From Bacteroides sp. (GTDB lineage: Bacteria; Bacteroidota; Bacteroidia; Bacteroidales; Bacteroidaceae), in assembly GCA_021201335.1 (NCBI GenBank), contig JAJQFD010000052.1:22405-86404 (forward strand): DNA of 64,000 nt, written 5' to 3'. A program made the translations under genes and the position numbers. Below, piece by piece: positions 4,424 through 17,800 of this stretch. The notes below the pieces were generated by a model, which was given only the letters and a program-made list of their open reading frames with translations, had not been told where the DNA came from and did not search any database. Positions within the stretch are counted from its first letter, which is position 1; every line of letters begins with the position of its first letter.

Positions 4424-7400
4424 TTATTCTGACTTATTTTTCCTGTATTCCAGCGGTGACATCAAATATTGTTCTTTGAAACATTTCCCGAAGTAACGAG
4501 GTGAACTGAACCCTAATAAATCAGATATTTCAGCTATCTGTAAATCGGGTCTAGTTCGTAATAGGGTGGAAGCCATTTTGAGTTTGTAGTTTACTATAAA
4601 GTCATTCGGAGTCATACCTGTTAACCCTTTGAATTTAGAGAATAACGTGCTTCTACCAAGGCCAATTTCTTTAGCTAGTTGATTGATATCAAATTCAGGG
4701 TTATCCAGGTTACGCTTAATCACTTCTTCGATGCGCTCCATAAAGTTTTGATCCAGTTGATTTGTAACCAGAAGTGAATTATCTACATCTGTCTGCGAAT
4801 GATATTTCTTTTGAAGTAACCTTCTGTTTCTTATCAGATTATTACATCTTGCGAATAATAATTTGGCATTAAACGGTTTTCCAATATAGTCATCCGCACC
4901 TTTTTGTAATCCTTCCATGTTTTGCTCATTAGAGTTTAAGGCTGTAAGCAAAACTACCGGAATATGACAAATGTCAAGATTGCTTTTGATACGCAGACAC
5001 ATTTCCGTTCCGGACATGATAGGCATCATTATATCACTCAATACCAAATGGGGCATATCTTCCATCGTTTTTCGTAATCCTTCTTCACCGTTTCGTGCTT
5101 GTATTACTTTATATATCGGACTGAAAAGAGTCGTAAGAATCTGAAGCAATTCTTCGTTATCTTCCACAATCAAGATTAACGGTTTGTCTTCTTCTGATGA
5201 TACAGAAGTTAAATTGTTATCCACTTCTATCATATTTTCCATCAGAAGAGGATCAGGTAAAGTGTCCGGCTGGATGCTATCTTTGGGTGTATCCGATAAA
5301 ATTTGTATATGCGGATCGTTATTAAAATGTTCGTTTCCTTTTCGCAACCGGACGGAAAAAATAGACCCATAGCCCAATTGACTTTCTACCGAAATAGTGC
5401 CATAATGACTCTCCACAATACTTTTGGTAAGTGCTAATCCAATTCCGGTACCTTTGTTAACTTTATCCGGGTCATCATCAACCTGATAAAACCGGCCAAA
5501 AATCTGGTTCAGGTTTTTCTTGTCTATCCCTATGCCATTATCTATTATATTAATACAAATTTTATTTTCTTCTTCCTGGATATTAAGTTCAATAACTCCT
5601 TTTCTTTTGGTATATTTAAAAGCATTGGATAGTATATTATAGAATACTTTTTTCATTTGATTCGGGTCGAACCAACATAAGATCGTTTCTTTACGGGGAG
5701 TAAACTTATAATTAATCTCGTTCGACAGGGAGTATTCATAAAACGACAGATAAATTTCCTGCAGGAACGGGATCAGGTTTTGCTCGGAAACATTCAGGGT
5801 AACATGTTTCTGTTCAAATTTCCTAAAGTCCAACAATTCACTGATAAGATTCCTCATGTGATACGTATGTTTATATACTTTAAGAATCTTGTTATATAAT
5901 AAAGGAGAAAGAGACGTGTTTTGTAATAATAACTCAATTTGAGAAATAATCAGTGTTAACGGTGTTCTGAATTCATGGCTGATATTGGTGAAGAAACGTA
6001 GTTTAGATTGATTTAATTCTTCAATCCGTTCTTTTTCTTTTTTCTCCGCATCCAAGGATGCAGCCAGTTTCATTTTACTATACCTGAAATAAATGAAAGT
6101 GGAAATAATAAGGGCAGTCATTAAAAAATAAAGAAAATAAGCCAGGGGTGTGCTGTAAAATGGTCTTTTAATGGTTATGACTAGCTGAATTTCTTCGGGA
6201 GACTGAATCAAACTGGCTGGTTTCTTTTCTTTCACCTTTAAGACATATTTTCCGGGATTCAAATTCGTGTAGTAAATGCTATTGTTATAAGTTTCTATCC
6301 ATTCATTGTCAAATCCCTCTAAAATATATTCGAAAGTGGAACGACTAAGCATCCCTACATAATTGTTCGAGGCAAAATAGAAAATCAGGTTATTTTGTTT
6401 ATGATTTAAGATGATGGATTTGGTATAGGCTAATATGTCGGTGAGCACACCTTTTTCCGGCAGAGGGTATATGGGTTTGTTAGCTATATACAGCTCCGAA
6501 AAATAAATATTATAGGGTTTATTCTTTTTGGAAAGATCTTCTTCATAGAAAGAAGAGAGTCCATCTGCACCACCCACATAAATCTCTCCGTTTTGGCAAA
6601 CATATAATCCGCAACTTTCATAAATAGCATTAATTAGCAATCCTCGGGGACCCAGATTAATGGTTTCAATTAATCCTTTTTCGGGATTAAAAATAAAAAT
6701 GTTCTGGCTGCTTGTTACAATCAGGTTTCCTTGCTGAGACTGGGTTATTTTATAACAATAGTTGCTCGGAATATTCCCATTTTCCACGCTATATTCCACA
6801 AATTCCTGTGTAGCTGGATTAAAACGAAAAAGACCGGAACCTTGTGTTCCAATGTAAATATCTCCTTCCAGGGTTTCAAACATACCTTTTATCGGACGAA
6901 CCCCTAAACCCATTTCTCCGGTATTGTAAACCCGGACATCCGAAGGATCATCTATTTTGATACGGTTAATATAAGAGACTCGCGACAACCATATATATCC
7001 CTTGCTGTCTATAATAAAATCAACACCCGCTGCTATATTGGGGAAAATATCCGGAAACAATCTACTGAATTTTTCCGTAATAAGGTCCATTTGAAATAAT
7101 CCATTACGTGCCAGGATGATAAGTTTATCTCCGTAAATATCTACCTTATGGATAACATCATTTGGCTTTTGATTTACATCCATCGTATTTTCCAAATAAT
7201 TGGTAAAATGATTACTGGATATATCATATTTTGATAGCCCTCCGGTGTGTGTACCTATATATAATACATTCCTTTTACTATCATAACAAATACTTTTAAG
7301 ATTGTTATGGGCAATCGAATTTTTATGAGGGTCGGCCAGGAAATGCTCTATTTTCCCGGTTTTCCGGTTTAATTTATTGAGCCCTCCACCTTCGGTACAA

Positions 7401-8495: not shown

Positions 8496-9737
8496 CTACA
8501 CAAAGATAGTTTTTTCTTGTTGCAAATGGAGTGTCTGGTCAAAACAAATTTCAAAAAGACAACCTTTTCCGACTTCTGAGCTAACATTGATCGATCCTCC
8601 ATGTTGATTGATTATTTGTTTGCAAAGGCTTAATCCAATGCCGGAACCGGAATTCTTGGTCGTAAAAAAAGGAACGAAGATTTTATCCATAACCTCCGGA
8701 AGGATGCCTTCGCCGTTATCGCTAATCAGGAAAATAACTTGTTCAGGATCCGCCTGAATAGCTGTTCTTATTTCAATTTGGGGTTCTGATACCTTTTCTG
8801 TGGCTTCCCTGGCATTTTTTAGTAAATTTATGAGTACTTGTTCTATTTGGGTACGGTCGGCTGATATAAATACCTCCTTTGCAGGAAGTTCGAACCGGAA
8901 TTCTTTTCCGGGAAAAAGCTTCTTAAGGTCTTTCAGTAATTCACCTATATTTACAGGAGCTAGTGTAAGAGCCGGTAAACTGGTAAGACGCCGGTAATTT
9001 TCCACGAAATTCAGCAAACCTTTGCTACGCCGATGAATGGTTTGCAAAGCCTGAAGCATGATTTGGTTTTCTGTGTCGTTCTGTTCCGATTGCGATGCCC
9101 GTTCACTGAGTGTTTCCGACAGAGAGAGGATAGGAGTAATGGAATTCATAATCTCATGGGTTAATACACTGATAAGTTTTTGCCAGGCTTCCATTTCGTT
9201 TCTCTGCAACACAGAATGAATATTTTTTAAACTGATCAGCAATTGTTCTTTTCCCTGGGCTGTAAAGATGGTAGAGGATTTAGCTAATTCCTGAATAATC
9301 CCGTTTCTTCTCAGCCGAATCATTTGGATTGCCGGTTGGCAGAATTGTTCCAGCAATTGTTCCGGTATTTGATGGTAATCTCCTAATAATTGTAGGGCAG
9401 CCTTATTGCTCCATTCAACCTTACCTTTAATATCAGTTACAAGTACAGCTGTATCAACTTTATTCAATAAATTTTCATAGTATTGATACTTGACTTCCTC
9501 TTGAAGAATACGTTGTTTGAGATCAGCTTCACGGGAACGGATATTTTCCACTAATCGTTGCATCGAATTAATGTACTTCGTTTGCAGTGTATATAATCGT
9601 ATGCAAATGCTTATGAGTATTAATAACAGGATGGTGGCACTGAACCAGAATTCTTTCCGGAAAACTAGATAACAACCTATCGATAATAAAATTATGAGCA
9701 GAATATGGATGATAATTGAAAATGGATATCTTTTCAT
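8496..9737 (-). CDS. NtrB-like sensor histidine kinase (two TM, PAS, HisKA, HATPase)
   Basis: LISVLTHEIMNSITPILSLSETL H-box, QVLINLLKNAREA N-box, GSGIGLSLCKQIINQHGG G-box; adjacent to NtrC-like gene. Confidence 0.9.
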   Translation of the reverse strand: MKRYPFSIIIHILLIILLSIGCYLVFRKEFWFSATILLLILISICIRLYTLQTKYINSMQRLVENIRSREADLKQRILQEEVKYQYYENLLNKVDTAVLVTDIKGKVEWSNKAALQLLGDYHQIPEQLLEQFCQPAIQMIRLRRNGIIQELAKSSTIFTAQGKEQLLISLKNIHSVLQRNEMEAWQKLISVLTHEIMNSITPILSLSETLSERASQSEQNDTENQIMLQALQTIHRRSKGLLNFVENYRRLTSLPALTLAPVNIGELLKDLKKLFPGKEFRFELPAKEVFISADRTQIEQVLINLLKNAREATEKVSEPQIEIRTAIQADPEQVIFLISDNGEGILPEVMDKIFVPFFTTKNSGSGIGLSLCKQIINQHGGSINVSSEVGKGCLFEICFDQTLHLQQEKTIFV

Positions 9738-11098
9738 AAACCAAGCTTTTCAAGTTTACGATACAAAGCATAACGGGTTATCCCCAGATAATCAGCAGCC
9801 CGGGACACATTTCCTTCGCTAAGTCGCATGGCGCGTTCTATGGCCTGTCGTTCCAGTTGTTCCAGATTGAGGATTTCCTCTTTAGCAGTTGGAGCCTGTA
9901 TAGGCTGAAGAAGAAAGCTTTCCGGACGCAATAAGACTTGTTCACTCAGAATGACCGCACGTTCAATACTGTGTTGTAATTCACGTACATTTCCCGGCCA
10001 GTTGTACTTCAGTAATTTGTTTTTGCTCTCACGAGTGAGTCCCTGAATTTCTTTTCGGTATTTTTGAGTATATATTTTCAGGAAATGATCCGCCAACAAT
10101 AGAATATCGTTTCCTCTTTCCCGGAGTGGCGGAATATGAATTTGAATAGTGTTTATTCTGTAAAGAAGATCCTGGCGGAAACCACCTTCATTTACCAACT
10201 TATGAATATTTACATTGGTTGCACAAATCAGCCGCACATCAATGGTGTATGCTTGTGTACTACCCAAACGGGTAATTTGTTGTTTTTCCAACGCAGTAAG
10301 AAGTTTAACTTGCATAGTAAGCGGCAAGTTCCCTATTTCATCCAGGAAAAGAGTACCTCCTGTTGCCACTTCCATGCGTCCCGGTTTGGACTTCCTGGCA
10401 TCTGTAAAAGCTCCTTTTTCGTAACCAAATAGTTCGCTTTCAAATAAAGATTCAGGAATGCTTCCCAAATCAATGCTAATAAATGGTTTATTATAGCGGG
10501 AAGAAGAACGGTATAGTAAATGAGCGATCATATCCTTCCCCGTTCCGTTTTCTCCGAGGATAAGTATATTAGCATCTGTATCACTTAATTTATATATGGT
10601 AGAAAAAATTTCCTGCATGGCTGCTGATTCACCGATAATTTCATGATCGTTGTATATCGAATCTTGGAGAATAGTAACCTGTTTTTTCAAATGTTTTACT
10701 TCCAGGCGGGAGTTCCTTAATTTAATTCCGGAAGAAAGAGTCGCCAAAAGTTTTTCTTTTTCCCATGGTTTGGATACAAAGTCTGTTGCGCCGGCTTTGA
10801 TGGCTTTTACCGCTTTATCTGTATCTGCATAAGCTGTCATAAAGATAACAATTGCCTGTGGATCGATCTCTAACACCCTTTTCAAACCTTCAAAACCTTC
10901 TTGCCCGCTAATAGCATCTCGGCTGAAATTCATATCCAGTAGTATAATGTCTGGTTCGAAGGTCTTCATAAAATAGGGGATTTTTTCAGGGGTGACGGCT
11001 ACCTTGATCTTTTCAAAATAAGGTTCTAGAAGCAAGTTTAATGCAAAAAGCACATCTTCATTATCATCAACGATTAATATTTTTCCTTGCTTGTTCAT
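9734..11098 (-). CDS. Sigma-54-dependent response regulator, NtrC family
   Basis: Receiver ILIVDDNEDVLFAL, AAA+ ILILGENGTGKDMIAHLLY and ESELFGYEKGAFTDA (GAFTGA-type loop), Fis-type HTH RAADYLGITRYALYRKLEKLGL. Confidence 0.95.
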   Translation of the reverse strand: MNKQGKILIVDDNEDVLFALNLLLEPYFEKIKVAVTPEKIPYFMKTFEPDIILLDMNFSRDAISGQEGFEGLKRVLEIDPQAIVIFMTAYADTDKAVKAIKAGATDFVSKPWEKEKLLATLSSGIKLRNSRLEVKHLKKQVTILQDSIYNDHEIIGESAAMQEIFSTIYKLSDTDANILILGENGTGKDMIAHLLYRSSSRYNKPFISIDLGSIPESLFESELFGYEKGAFTDARKSKPGRMEVATGGTLFLDEIGNLPLTMQVKLLTALEKQQITRLGSTQAYTIDVRLICATNVNIHKLVNEGGFRQDLLYRINTIQIHIPPLRERGNDILLLADHFLKIYTQKYRKEIQGLTRESKNKLLKYNWPGNVRELQHSIERAVILSEQVLLRPESFLLQPIQAPTAKEEILNLEQLERQAIERAMRLSEGNVSRAADYLGITRYALYRKLEKLGL

Positions 11099-11157
11099 AA
11101 GCTGATTTCGTTTGAAGTTCCATGGGACAAATATAGATATAAAATCTTTGTGCTGTA

Positions 11158-11194
11158 TGTGCGATAGCGCACGTGTTTTGTGCGTTTTTTCACA
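11158..11194. promoter_or_regulatory. Two 16-bp dyad sites (TGTGCGATAGCGCACG and TGTGCGTTTTTTCACA), candidate enhancer sites for the NtrC-like regulator
   Basis: Sites at 11158-11173 and 11179-11194, start-to-start 21 bp, in the divergent intergenic region. Confidence 0.55.
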
Positions 11195-11249
11195 TCTTTC
11201 CGTAAGTGTGTTCTTTATTATCTTCTTGTATTACAACCGATTGTCGGAA

Positions 11250-11265
11250 TGGCATGTCTTTTGAA
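11250..11265 (+). promoter_or_regulatory. Candidate sigma-54 promoter TGGCATG-tctt-TTGAA
   Basis: Matches TGGCAYR-N4-TTGCW spacing with one mismatch in the -12 element (GA instead of GC); about 30 bp upstream of ATG 11296. Confidence 0.5.
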
Positions 11266-11295: not shown

Positions 11296-12786
11296 ATGAA
11301 AATCATATATCTGCTAAGACTGATGTTTTTTTGCTGGAATGAATTACTCGTTTTTGTTGATTTACCCACAGGTTGAACCTTTGGAATTGACATTGGAAGA
11401 GACTGTAGAGAGGGCACAAACATATTCGCCAGATGCTCAAACCGCCCGTCATAGCTTTCGCTCGGAATACTGGAATTATAAATACTATCGCGCCAATTAT
11501 CTGCCTTCTTTAACGCTTACCTCAAATCCGTACCTGAAAAGAGTTATTAATGAAATTACCCTGGAAGACGGTACAGTGAAGTTTGTTGAACAAAATATGT
11601 TAAGTACGGATCTTTCTTTCCAGTTTACTCAGAATATTCCGTGGACGGGGGGGGAAGCGTTTTTCTGGAAACCTTTGCGCAGCGTATTGATATGTTAAGC
11701 GATAGGGCAACATCCTGGCAAACATCTCCCATAAATATAGGCTATAGTCAATCTTTATTTGGGTATAATCAGTTGAAGTGGGATCAGAAAATTGAACCTG
11801 TCCGTTATCAGGAAGCCCGGAAAAGATATCAGGAAAAACTAGAATTGATTGCCACAAATGCTACTGATTTGTTTTTTGCATTGGCAACTGCCCAAAGTAA
11901 TCTAGAAACAGCTTTATTTAATTTTGCCCAGGCAGATACACTTTATCATTTTGCACAAGGACGATATGGTATTGGAACTATTACGGAAAATGAAATGCTT
12001 CAGCTTGAAATCAACCGACTGACAGAAGAAACCAATCAGCTGAATGCCCGTATTGAAGTGGAAAACAGCATACAGACCCTTCGTTCGTATCTGAGTTTCC
12101 AGGAAGATGTAGAAATAAGAGTAAAACTGAATCAGGAAGTACCGGGATTCATGATAGAATCCCATCATGCCTTATTAATTGCAACTGAGAACAGTCCTGA
12201 TATACTGCAAATGCTTCGTTGGAAATTGGAGAGTGAGAATGCTGTAGCCCAGGCAAAAGCTAATGCCGGGATAAAGGCTAATTTATACGTTCGCTTGGGT
12301 CTGACGCAAACAGCAAACAACTGGAAAGATGCTTATAAAAATCCACTTGATCAGCAATATATTAGTTTAGGAATTACATTACCTATTCTTGACTGGGGAA
12401 GAGGGAAAGGGAAAATACAGATTGCCCGTTCCCAGCGTGACCTGGTGTATACCCAAGTTCGACAATATGAAACAGATTTTGAGCTCAATGTACGCAAGCT
12501 GGTGAAACTTTTCAATTTACAGGTACAACGGGTAGAGATTGCCATACGTACTGATCAAACGGCGCAGCGTCGACATGATGTGGCGCGACGGTTATACTTA
12601 CTGGGGAAATCGACGATACTTGACCTGAATGCTTCGATTGCTGAGAAGGACAGTGCAAAACGCAGTTATATTAATGCTTTACATTATTATTGGACATTAT
12701 ACTATACATCACGAAGTATTACATTGTATGATTTTCAACAAAATAAAGCTCTGTCAGTTAACCTGGAAGAACTGATAGAAAATTAA
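11296..12786 (+). pseudogene. TolC-family outer membrane efflux protein, frame interrupted at G8 (and possibly T7) tract
   Basis: ORFs 11339..11698 (LELTLEETVERAQTYSPDAQTARHSF...QNIPWTGG) and 11641..12786 (GSVFLETFAQRIDML...) join across the G8 at 11647-11654; an upstream M-start ORF (MKIIYLLRLMFF) joins in frame if T7 at 11326-11332 is read as T6. Confidence 0.8.
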
Positions 12787-12796
12787 AATACTTTTT

Positions 12797-14047
12797 ATGG
12801 ATATACAACGAGAAAAGCAACCCTGGTACAGCCGATATAAATATCATATGGCTGCAGGCATAATCTTTACCGTCTTCTTGGTATATGTGGTTTTCCTTTC
12901 GGTAGGCCCCCGCCGTCTTCAGGTAGATGTTGAAAGGATACAGATTGCAGTAGTGAAGAAAGATAAATTCCTGGAATATATTGATGTGGAAGGGGTGGTG
13001 CAACCTATTCTAACTATTCAGGTAAATACACGTGAAGCGGGTAGCGTAGATTATATTCCAGGTGAAGAAGGAAGTATGCTTTCTCAGGGAGATACCATTC
13101 TTGTATTGTCAAATCCGGATCTGGTTCGCAGTATTGAAGATCAGCGTGACGAATGGGAAAAACAGATGATATCTTATCAGGAAAAACTAATCGAAATGGA
13201 ACAGAAGAGTCTTACCTTACAACAACAGGCTTTACAAACAGACTATGAGCTGACTCGTCTCCGAAAAAGTTATGAATTAGATAAAGAAGAATATCGAATG
13301 GGTATTAAGAGCAAGGCCCAACTGGAAGTGTCTGAAGATGAATTTAATTTTAATGTAGAGAAGGCAGCCCTGCAACGGGAAGGACTCCGGCAAGATTCGG
13401 TTGTAACTATGATCCGCCGTGATCTGCTGCGCAATGACCAAGAGCGAGAACGAAAAAAATACCTGCGTTCCTGCGAGCGTCGGGATGACCTGATTGTTAA
13501 GGCTCCGGTCAACGGGCAGCTAAGTTTTATAAAGGTAACTCCCGGTCAGATGGTATCTTCCAATGAAGCTATTGCTGAAATTAAAATACTTGATCAGTTT
13601 AAAATACATACGTCGTTGAGTGAATATTATATCGACCGGATTGTAACCGGATTACCTGGTACCATTCATTATCAGGGAAGCAAATACCCATTACAGATCA
13701 GTAAAGTAGTGCCTGAAGTAAAAGACCGGACATTTGATGTGGATCTGGTTTTTACAGGAGAGATACCTGATAATGTTCGTATTGGTAAAAGCTTTCGGGT
13801 ACAAATAGAATTAGGACAACCGGAAGAAGCTTTGGTAATATCTCGGGGCAATTTTTATTCTACTACAGCAGGGCAGTGGGTTTACAAACTTAATGGTACT
13901 AAAACAAAAGCTACACGTGTACCCATATCCATTGGCCGGCAAAACCCGCAACAATATGAAATAACAGATGGGCTACATCTAGAAGACTATGTGATTACCA
14001 CAGGATATGATACTTTTGGTGATGCACAGGAGTTAATATTGAAATAA
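12797..14047 (+). CDS. HlyD-family membrane fusion protein (periplasmic adaptor)
   Basis: Single N-terminal TM, coiled coil, VKAPVNGQLSFIKVTPGQMVSSNEAIAEI lipoyl-like motif; follows TolC gene. Confidence 0.88.
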   Translation: MDIQREKQPWYSRYKYHMAAGIIFTVFLVYVVFLSVGPRRLQVDVERIQIAVVKKDKFLEYIDVEGVVQPILTIQVNTREAGSVDYIPGEEGSMLSQGDTILVLSNPDLVRSIEDQRDEWEKQMISYQEKLIEMEQKSLTLQQQALQTDYELTRLRKSYELDKEEYRMGIKSKAQLEVSEDEFNFNVEKAALQREGLRQDSVVTMIRRDLLRNDQERERKKYLRSCERRDDLIVKAPVNGQLSFIKVTPGQMVSSNEAIAEIKILDQFKIHTSLSEYYIDRIVTGLPGTIHYQGSKYPLQISKVVPEVKDRTFDVDLVFTGEIPDNVRIGKSFRVQIELGQPEEALVISRGNFYSTTAGQWVYKLNGTKTKATRVPISIGRQNPQQYEITDGLHLEDYVITTGYDTFGDAQELILK

Positions 14048-14056
14048 TGAATTAAT

Positions 14057-14740
14057 ATGAATACTATGATCCAAACAGAAAACTTACAAAAGATCTTCCA
14101 GACGGAAGAAGTTGAAACATGGGCATTGAACAATGTCAATATTCAAATCAGTGAAGGCGAATTTGTAGCTATTATGGGACCTTCCGGTTGTGGAAAATCG
14201 ACTTTACTTAACATTCTGGGGTTACTGGATAAACCTACATCCGGCAACTATCGTCTCAATGGAACAGATGTATCCAACTATACAGAGTCGCAGCGCACTA
14301 ATCTCCGGAAAGGTGTAATTGGTTTCGTATTCCAGAGCTTTAACCTGATTGATGAATTGAATTTATTTGAGAATATCGAACTTCCTTTACTCTATATGGG
14401 TATTTCTGCTTCCGAAAGAAAAAAGCGGGTTGAAAGGGCAATGGAACGAATGGAGATTCATCAACGGAGTAAACATTTTCCTCAACAGTTGTCAGGAGGC
14501 CAGCAACAACGGGTTGCAATAGCACGCGCTGTTGTGGCTAATCCGAAGTTGATTCTTGCTGATGAGCCTACCGGTAATCTCGACTCTAAGAATGGAAAGG
14601 AGGTAATGTTCTTATTAAGCGAGCTTAACCGGGAAGGGACTACAATTGCGATGGTTACCCACTCTCAACATGATGCGAGTTATGCCCAACGGATAATTAA
14701 TTTATTTGATGGTCAGGTGATAAGTGAATTTAGGGGATAG
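14057..14740 (+). CDS. ABC transporter ATP-binding protein (MacB/LolD type)
   Basis: Walker A GPSGCGKSTLL, signature LSGGQQQRVAIARA, Walker B LILADEPTG. Confidence 0.95.
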   Translation: MNTMIQTENLQKIFQTEEVETWALNNVNIQISEGEFVAIMGPSGCGKSTLLNILGLLDKPTSGNYRLNGTDVSNYTESQRTNLRKGVIGFVFQSFNLIDELNLFENIELPLLYMGISASERKKRVERAMERMEIHQRSKHFPQQLSGGQQQRVAIARAVVANPKLILADEPTGNLDSKNGKEVMFLLSELNREGTTIAMVTHSQHDASYAQRIINLFDGQVISEFRG

Positions 14741-14887: not shown

Positions 14888-17800
14888 ATGAAATTCAAAT
14901 ATTACCTTGCTTTTATTGTTTTCGTAAGTTTGTTTTCTTTCCGAAGTGTCCAGGCACAGCCATCATTGCAGCAGCAATTCCAAAATCCACCCGAAGAAGC
15001 GAAACCCTGGACAATCTGGCATTGGATGTTTGGTGCTCTTTCCAAAGAAGGGCTGACAGCTGATCTGGAAGCAATGAAAGAAGTGGGTCTGGGCGGTGCA
15101 TTTATATTGGCCATTAAATCGCCGGAACAAGGGCCACCTTATCCGGGAGCGCTCCGGCAACTTACCCCTGAATGGTGGGGAATGGTTCACCATACCATGA
15201 AGGAAGCCGACCGATTAGGATTGAAACTCGGTATGCATATATGCGACGGGTTTGCATTAGCCGGTGGTCCGTGGATTACACCAGAAGAATCCATGCAGAG
15301 AATTGTCTGGGCAGATACAATTGTTTCCGGAGGGAAAATAAAAGACCTAACTCTGCCACAACCGGAGAATTATCAAGGTTATTACAAAGATATAGCACTG
15401 TATGCCTATCCGATTTCTCCAAAGAGGACGCAAGAATTAACCCGAAAAGATTTTCCTATCATAACAACTTCAGCAGAGGTTGATACTACCGGTGGTTTTT
15501 TCCGGGCAAATGCTACGGATATCAGTGATCCTGCTGCGGACGGGGCATGGATACAGTATGAGTTTACCGAACCTTTCACTTGTCGCAACATTGAGATCGT
15601 AAAGGTGAACAATAACTACCAGGCACAACGCCTGAAAGTGATGGCTAGCAATGACGGAATAAACTTTCGACTGGTAAAGCAACTTGTACCAGCACGCCAG
15701 GGATGGCAGAATTATGAGTTTAACGATACCCATGCCATTCCACCAACTACTGCGCGATACTTTCGTTTTTATTGGAATCCAGCGGGTACGGAGCCAGGAA
15801 GCGAAGATATGAACGATGCCAAGTGGAAACCGAATCTCAAAATCAAAGAAATCTTATTGCATAGTGAACCTCGTCTCCATCATTGGCAAGCAAAAACAGG
15901 CCTCGTATGGCGAGTAGCAAATCATACAGCTAACAACGAAATTACACCTTCGGACTGTATATCTAAGGAGAGTTTGATAAACCTGACAGGCTTTATGAAG
16001 GAAGGTGTTCTTAGCACAGAACTTCCCAAAGGTAACTGGAAATTGTTGCGCATCGGCCATACTTCCAACGGACATACCAATGAAACTGGGGGAGCAGGAA
16101 AAGGATTGGAATGCAATAAATTCAGCCGGACTATTGTGAGGAAGCAGTTGGAAAACTGGTTTGGTGCTGCTTTCCGACAGACAGATCCGGCTCTGGCACG
16201 TCGGGTACTTAAATCTATCTTTGTCGATAGTTGGGAGTGTGGAAGCCAGAATTGGAGTGACAATTTCGCCGCAGAATTTGAGGCTCGTCGTGGTTATGAC
16301 CTGATGCCTTACCTGCCACTTTTAACCGGACTACCCATGGAAGATGCGGAAATCTCCGAAAGAATATTACGTGATGTACGTACTACTATGGCCGATCTTG
16401 TAGTAGATGTTTTTTATACGGAATTGGCTGCATTCGCCAAAGACTACGACTGTGAAATATCTGCTGAAAATGTTTCACCTACCATGATCAGCGATGGAAT
16501 GACTCACTTTCAGAAAGTAGACCGCCCGATGGGGGAATTCTGGTTGAGAAGTCCCACGCACGATAAGACCAATGATATGCTAGATGCTATCAGTGGAGCA
16601 CATATTTACGGGAAACCGATTGTACAGGCAGAAGCATTTACTCAGATTCGTGGCCATTGGGATGAACATCCCGGGATGCTGAAAGCAATGCTTGATCGCA
16701 ATTATGCATTAGGCATCAATAAAATGGTATTCCATGTATATGTTCATAATCCGTATTTGGATCGTAAACCAGGTATGACACTGGACGGTATCGGACTCTT
16801 TTTTCAACGGGATCAAACGTGGTGGAAGCACGGAGCCAAAGCTTTTGTTGAATATGCCACCCGTGTCCAAACCTTATTACAATATGGCTGTCCAGTTGCT
16901 GATATTGCTGTTTTTACAGGTGAAGAGATGCCTCGTCGGGCTGTTTTACCCGAACGTCTGGTTCCTTCCTTACCCGGTATTTTTGGAGCAGAAAGAGTAG
17001 CAAGCGAGAAGAAAAGATTAGCTAACGAAGGCCGGCCTTTGAGAAGCATTGCAGGAGTAACCCATGCCGCCAACATGGCTGATCCGGAGAAATGGGTCAA
17101 CGCTTTACGGGGATATGCTTATGATTCTTTTAATAAAGATGCCTTACTAAACCATGCTAAAGTAGAAAATGGCAGAATAGTTTTATCCGGAGGTGCCTCT
17201 TATAAAGTGCTTGTATTGCCTTTGGCTCGTCCAATGAATCCGGATAATATACCTTTATCTTCTGAAGTCTCAACTAAAATTGAAGAGTTTCGCAAAGGGG
17301 GGTGATTATTCCTGAATTACCCTATAACGAGGATGATTTTTCTGCATATCAGTTGGAAAGAGACGTAATTGTTCCTGAAAATATTGCCTGGACTCATCGA
17401 ACCGGGGAGGAAGCTGATATTTATTTTATCGCCAATCAAGCAGGGGAAGCTGTTTCTTTTGATGCCTCTTTACGTATGGTCGGTACTCCCGAACTTTGGA
17501 ATCCGGTAACCGGAGAGATCACCTTGCCTTTAGAGGTTGAAACCCATGGAATGCGTACCATTGTGCCATTACGTCTTGATTCCAATGAATCGGTATTTGT
17601 GGTCTTTCGGAAACAGGGAAATACAGTGGCGGATGCTATGCAAGAAAAATCATCTGTTACCTTGCCTTTGGAGGTGGATCATTGGAGTATTTTATTCCCA
17701 TCTCTAGGTCAGTTAACCTTAACTAAAGGTCATCTTTTTGATTGGAGTAAAGAAGAAGATGAAAAAATAAAATATTATTCTGGTACTGCCGTTTATAATA

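Follow-up and report, generated by a model that had tools for sequence, protein, structure and literature searches.

The window, the whole 64,000-nucleotide stretch of Bacteroides sp. DNA that was analysed, carries a two-component gene pair that reads away from the genes of a TolC-type channel, an HlyD-family adaptor and an ABC ATPase, with a series of short sequence elements in the intergenic region (window coordinates throughout):

8496-9737, minus strand: sensor histidine kinase (PAS, HisKA and HATPase_c domains), overlapping the regulator gene
9734-11098, minus strand: NtrC-type response regulator, the presumed enhancer-binding protein (Response_reg, Sigma54_activat and HTH_8 domains)
11128-11135, minus strand: probable -7 box of the regulator gene's housekeeping promoter, TATATTTG, of the type TAnnTTTG
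11158-11173, no strand assigned: candidate enhancer dyad 1, TGTGCGATAGCGCACG, arms perfect, centred at about -110 relative to the predicted transcription start
11179-11194, no strand assigned: candidate enhancer dyad 2, TGTGCGTTTTTTCACA, centred at about -89 relative to the predicted start
11219-11243, no strand assigned: IHF-like palindromic element, TATCTTCTTGTATTACAACCGATTG, a candidate HU/IHF-family bend site in the enhancer-promoter linker
11250-11265, plus strand: putative sigma-54 -24/-12 element, TGGCATGTCTTTTGAA, read as TGGCATG-TCTT-TTGAA, with transcription predicted to start at about 11276
11296-12786, plus strand: gene for a TolC-type outer-membrane channel, its reading frame broken by shifts
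12797-14047, plus strand: periplasmic adaptor of the HlyD family, resembling DarC of the darobactin exporter most closely but scoring below the cut-off of that model
14057-14740, plus strand: MacB/DarD-like ABC ATPase, the last gene of the remaining operon

The regulator gene is intact and divergent from tolC, and its product combines a receiver, an AAA+ domain with the GAFTDA motif and a Fis-type helix-turn-helix with the recognition helix ITRYALYRK, as expected of an NtrC-type activator. The initial annotation, which had described a divergent sigma-54 activator with GAFTDA next to its kinase, was correct in this respect. The nearest named relative is Bacteroides sp. 224, whose regulator is 80% identical. 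The genome (4,997,259 bases in 62 contigs) encodes RpoN and eight full sigma-54 activators.

Both enhancer sites are 16-bp dyads of the consensus TGTGCG-N4-CGCACA, spaced 21 bp start-to-start; dyad 2 is a degenerate copy with two mismatches to CGCAC in its right arm. Re-reading of the sequence thus confirmed the two 16-bp TGTGCG dyads 21 bp apart that had been reported earlier, as well as their approximate placement 60-90 bp upstream of TGGCATG-N4-TTGAA, the GTGCG cores of dyads 1 and 2 beginning 91 and 70 bp 5' of TGGCATGTCTTTTGAA. Such a dyad pair did not arise once when the intergenic region of the window was dinucleotide-shuffled 20,000 times; the arrangement lies far beyond chance, and a fortuitous origin of the dyads was rejected. 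In a pattern search of the whole assembly, the perfect sequence GTGCGN4CGCAC occurred once in 4,997,259 bases, namely as dyad 1. A single perfect dyad in the genome points to a regulator with one main target and, judged from sequence, the regulator appears to be dedicated to this one operon.

The element TGGCATGTCTTTTGAA has the canonical GG-N10-G spacing of sigma-54 promoters, in agreement with the initial annotation, though its -12 dinucleotide is GA where the canonical one is GC. Most relatives likewise carry G-[A/T/G] at this position and do not keep the C of GC, while the GG-N10-G spacing is constant in 40 loci. Given this -24/-12 signature and the presence of rpoN in the genome, the element is predicted to be a sigma-54-dependent promoter. 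An Rfam scan of the window returned no match.

Conservation of the dyads at orthologous loci had been proposed earlier as a check, and its absence as a refutation. The check was made on homologues of the regulator from two collections, which provided 98 distinct upstream regions, and its outcome did not refute the initial annotation. A tandem dyad pair was present in 59 of the 98, with a spacing of 21 (n=43), 20 (n=14) or 22 bp (n=2), and under a strict pattern 40 of the 98 combined the pair with a -24/-12 element; among 19,600 shuffled upstream regions there were 8 with a dyad pair and none with the full arrangement. The distance from the dyad 2 core to the TGG was 70 bp in 32 of these 40 loci and 69-72 bp in the other eight, and it held even where dyad 1 was shifted by one base. 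When the -24 element was relaxed to TGGTA, more loci fitted, at 70-72 bp. Columns between the elements were mostly variable in the aligned orthologues, which argues that the conservation is not simply due to recent ancestry. Dyads, spacing and -24/-12 element are therefore kept in dozens of Bacteroidales loci, the module being present in P. vulgatus ATCC 8482 (L070) as well, and tandem upstream dyads conserved among orthologues are what an NtrC-type enhancer would look like.

Three loci (L126, L130 and L086) encode a regulator with the right recognition helix whose own gene is not preceded by dyads. When these loci were searched in full, all three proved to have one or more dyads, a palindrome-like linker and a -24/-12 element at 69-71 bp directly upstream of tolC, at least 1 kb away from the regulator gene, which argues that the sites follow the target operon and not just the regulator gene. 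Regulators with a helix of the type [IV][ST]R[FY]ALYRK pair with GTGCG dyads, and homologues with other recognition helices (e.g., in Chitinophaga and Cyclobacteriaceae) have no GTGCG dyad, so that the proposed pairing of regulator and dyad takes the form of an association between helix type and dyad type. Three loci with a fitting helix (L079, L082 and L090) showed no dyad pair in the DNA searched. In five further loci (L100, L101, L102, L104 and L106), tandem dyads with a spacing of 20 bp precede the regulator by about 110-125 bp, and neither a TolC exporter nor a sigma-54 promoter is adjacent.

Between enhancer and promoter lies an element that the initial annotation had missed. This 25-bp palindrome, centred at -19 from the T of TGG, follows the consensus YA-N5-YTG-N5-CAR-N4-WTR, with conserved columns YA (-31, -30), YTG (-24 to -22), CAR (-16 to -14) and WTR (-9 to -7) numbered from the same T; the window copy matches all 11 of 11 positions. 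Its half-site, CAR-N4-WTR, is that of IHF. The published IHF consensus WATCARNNNNTTR (PMC7962754) fitted best at exactly the palindrome's register in the 40 orthologues (mean 7.0/9, next register 5.05/9), with perfect matches in seven of them and 7/9 in the window. Scored with a position weight matrix trained on other genera, the held-out Bacteroides/Phocaeicola linkers averaged 12.2 and shuffles -10.4; exchanging training and test genera gave a concordant result. At two further promoters of this genome (L208 and L215), which adjoin other activators and had been chosen by their -24/-12 elements alone, before the palindrome was known, the best score again fell on register 0, and 2 and 3 of 5,000 shuffles, respectively, did as well. 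Searches with the combined pattern returned 18 strand-hits in this genome versus 2 for the reversed control, and 16 exact matches versus none for the control in 251 genomes of the family; as the pattern includes the element itself, these counts speak for recurrence and are not independent proof. Within the palindrome, covariation did not exceed the expectation from column composition, so its symmetry rests on the consensus rather than on compensatory changes. HU/IHF-family genes are present in the genome, and two adjacent ones (G000 C2:23300-23862) encode candidate binders of the palindrome. Taken together, the linker palindrome is a probable bend site for a protein of this family, and its symmetry suggests a homodimeric one.

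The initial annotation had named the operon TolC-HlyD-ABC. All three genes are indeed present, although tolC is frameshifted and the permeases found in relatives are absent, a gap that had gone unnoticed. The gene order of Bacteroides sp. 224 is tolC-hlyD-permease-permease-ABC, and relatives that possess tolC and hlyD almost always carry at least one FtsX/MacB-type permease gene next to them. In the window, the ABC gene follows hlyD directly (14047-14057) and both FtsX/MacB-type permease genes are missing; a search of the whole assembly for relocated orthologues found none, the best matches being 21-26% identical. Measured against a DarBCD/MacAB-type tripartite exporter, in which an FtsX/MacB permease accompanies TolC, adaptor and ATPase, the set encoded here is hence incomplete. 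The tolC frameshifts lie near T-tracts (~11326-11354) and at a run of eight G (11647-11654). Homopolymer breaks occur elsewhere in the assembly: a GH106 rhamnosidase gene is split (14888-17305/17302-18132) at a run of six G (17297-17302), and an activator gene on contig 26 breaks at a run of nine C (L184, ~5640-5655). The tolC frameshifts are therefore probably homopolymer sequencing errors, and we did not adopt the view of tolC as a plain pseudogene. Sequencing error leaves the clean absence of ~4.7 kb of permease genes unexplained.

We propose that the intergenic region comprises the entire control region of an exporter operon that depends on sigma-54. The kinase would phosphorylate the divergently encoded regulator, two dimers of which would sit side by side on the tandem dyads, on the same face of the helix. 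An HU/IHF-family protein bound to the palindrome would bend the DNA and so bring the AAA+ ring and the GAFTDA loops it carries into contact with RpoN-RNA polymerase at TGGCATG-N4-TTGAA, whereupon the polymerase would open the promoter and transcribe tolC-hlyD-(permeases)-ABC from about 11276. We assign this reading a probability of roughly 0.86. It is in line with the activation of the exporter operon by the regulator-kinase pair predicted by the initial annotation, a prediction that gains support from the loci in which dyads and promoter precede tolC even though the regulator gene is distant.

The same dyads could be viewed mainly as the operator of the regulator's own gene, the TGGCA...TTG match being incidental. 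Alignment of the upstream regions revealed a conserved block, CAAAGATA (in the window CAAATATA, 11128-11135), at a fixed distance from dyad 1, and we take this block to be a Bacteroides -7 box of the TAnnTTTG type, read on the complementary strand. Dyad 1 thereby adjoins the -33 region of the putative regulator-gene promoter, and several Prevotellaceae-type loci keep the dyads with neither an exporter nor a sigma-54 promoter adjacent to them. These observations suggest that the dyads may serve autoregulation too, which is compatible with activation of the exporter operon. As their main function it is very improbable: the 70-bp spacing to the -24/-12 element is nearly invariant while the inter-dyad spacing varies, and in L126, L130 and L086 the dyads lie directly upstream of tolC, far from the regulator gene. 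The loci without a divergent promoter were also examined for a sigma-54 promoter directed at the regulator gene, and none was found. The linker palindrome, for its part, might not be a bend site but an operator bound by some other symmetric transcription factor, or an additional site for the sigma-54 activators. Its palindromic form is consistent with this, E. coli IHF sites being asymmetric, as is the score of only 7/9 of the window copy against the IHF consensus. We nonetheless consider it unlikely, since the element keeps a constant register to the -24 box at promoters that belong to different activators and have different dyads, as it should if a general architectural factor binds there, and since an external IHF consensus peaks at precisely this register.

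A separate matter is the state of the operon in this strain. With the permeases missing, it is doubtful that activation would yield a working exporter, and in this genome the switch probably drives an incomplete one. The operon might even be a decaying remnant whose control region is no longer under selection: both permease genes of the nearest relative are gone from the whole assembly, dyad 2 has two mismatches and tolC is frameshifted. Against this, the frames of regulator, kinase, hlyD and ABC gene are intact, as are dyad 1, the linker element (11/11) and the -24/-12 element, and the tolC breaks fall at G and T homopolymers like others in the assembly, where they may be sequencing errors. 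We regard decay as a serious possibility that falls somewhat short of even odds.

Sigma-54 promoters of the NtrC/glnAp2 type, found in E. coli and other bacteria, have nitrogen genes as their target. The proposed control region shares with them a tandem dyad enhancer about 90-110 bp upstream, a GAFTDA-bearing AAA+ activator, RpoN and a -24/-12 element; it differs in its dyad (TGTGCG-N4-CGCACA), in its nearly invariant enhancer-promoter distance, in a -12 box without GC and in having an exporter as the target. An IHF site between enhancer and promoter is usual at RpoN promoters (PMC7962754), and IHF-assisted examples include those of Geobacter and Desulfovibrio orp (PMC7962754, PMC3897727). The candidate bend site resembles these in matching WATCARNNNNTTR between enhancer and promoter, but is palindromic, with two inverted half-sites. 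The closest counterparts of adaptor and ATPase are DarC and DarD, and the operons of relatives, with MacB_PCD/FtsX permeases and TolC, resemble MacAB-type tripartite exporters; unlike DarBCD and MacAB, the window's proteins fall below the curated DarC/DarD cut-offs and the permease is missing. A 2025 study used -24/-12 matrices to predict that FtsX-type ABC permeases of Bacteroidia are controlled by sigma-54 (PMC12316311); its bacterial class and exporter type are those found here. In the portion of that study available to us, activator, enhancer dyad and bend site are not named for the exporters, and a search of its text found neither 'IHF' nor 'HlyD'; the present locus supplies candidates for all three elements. 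The literature searched for a Bacteroides RpoN exporter regulon or IHF consensus held nothing specific beyond this study. Enhancer, IHF site and -24/-12 element in this order are a textbook arrangement (PMC7962754, PMC3897727). What is new, at the level of sequence comparison, is that an activator can be named along with its putative dyad, that the geometry is nearly fixed, that the linker element is symmetric and the -12 box non-GC, and that dyad and helix are linked; the literature searched appears to hold no description of a Bacteroidales module that combines a symmetric bend site with a -12 box lacking GC.

From that literature, RpoN and its activators seem to have been hardly studied in gut Bacteroidales. 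A precisely spaced control region that recurs across the order points to a dedicated switch for a peptide/drug exporter. Comparison has pinned down a regulator and the likely sites of its binding and of DNA bending, along with a promoter and a target operon, and rpoN function thereby becomes directly testable in these bacteria. The apparent code from helix to dyad could be applied to other exporters, with antimicrobial peptides or drugs as their possible substrates.

Of the eight sigma-54 activators encoded in this genome, at least five adjoin ABC exporters, that of the window included, and several dyad types are represented (L181, L182, L184 and L180, on G000 C30, C33, C26 and C33). Beside the exporter-linked activators outside the window lie the dyads TGTCCG-N4-CGGACA (C30 and C33), TGTCTA-N4-TAGACA (C26) and GGGTAATAAATTACCC (C33), and the genes downstream of combined-pattern matches are mostly exporter genes (HlyD, FtsX, TolC, ABC). 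It is an even bet that Bacteroidales use a stereotyped sigma-54 architecture, mainly for peptide/drug exporters, in which paralogous NtrC-type regulators each have a dyad of their own (TGTGCG, TGTCCG, TGTCTA or another) and have in common a symmetric HU/IHF bend site of the homodimer type, fixed beside a non-GC -12 box. Three similar small secreted proteins of ~164 aa are each encoded behind an IHF-like palindrome and a sigma-54 type promoter (L209, L210 and L211; G000 C41:4091-4135, C62:33839-33883 and C19:547953-547997). TGTCC-type dyads are present at two of these three promoters, and a sigma-54 regulon of secreted proteins is possible.
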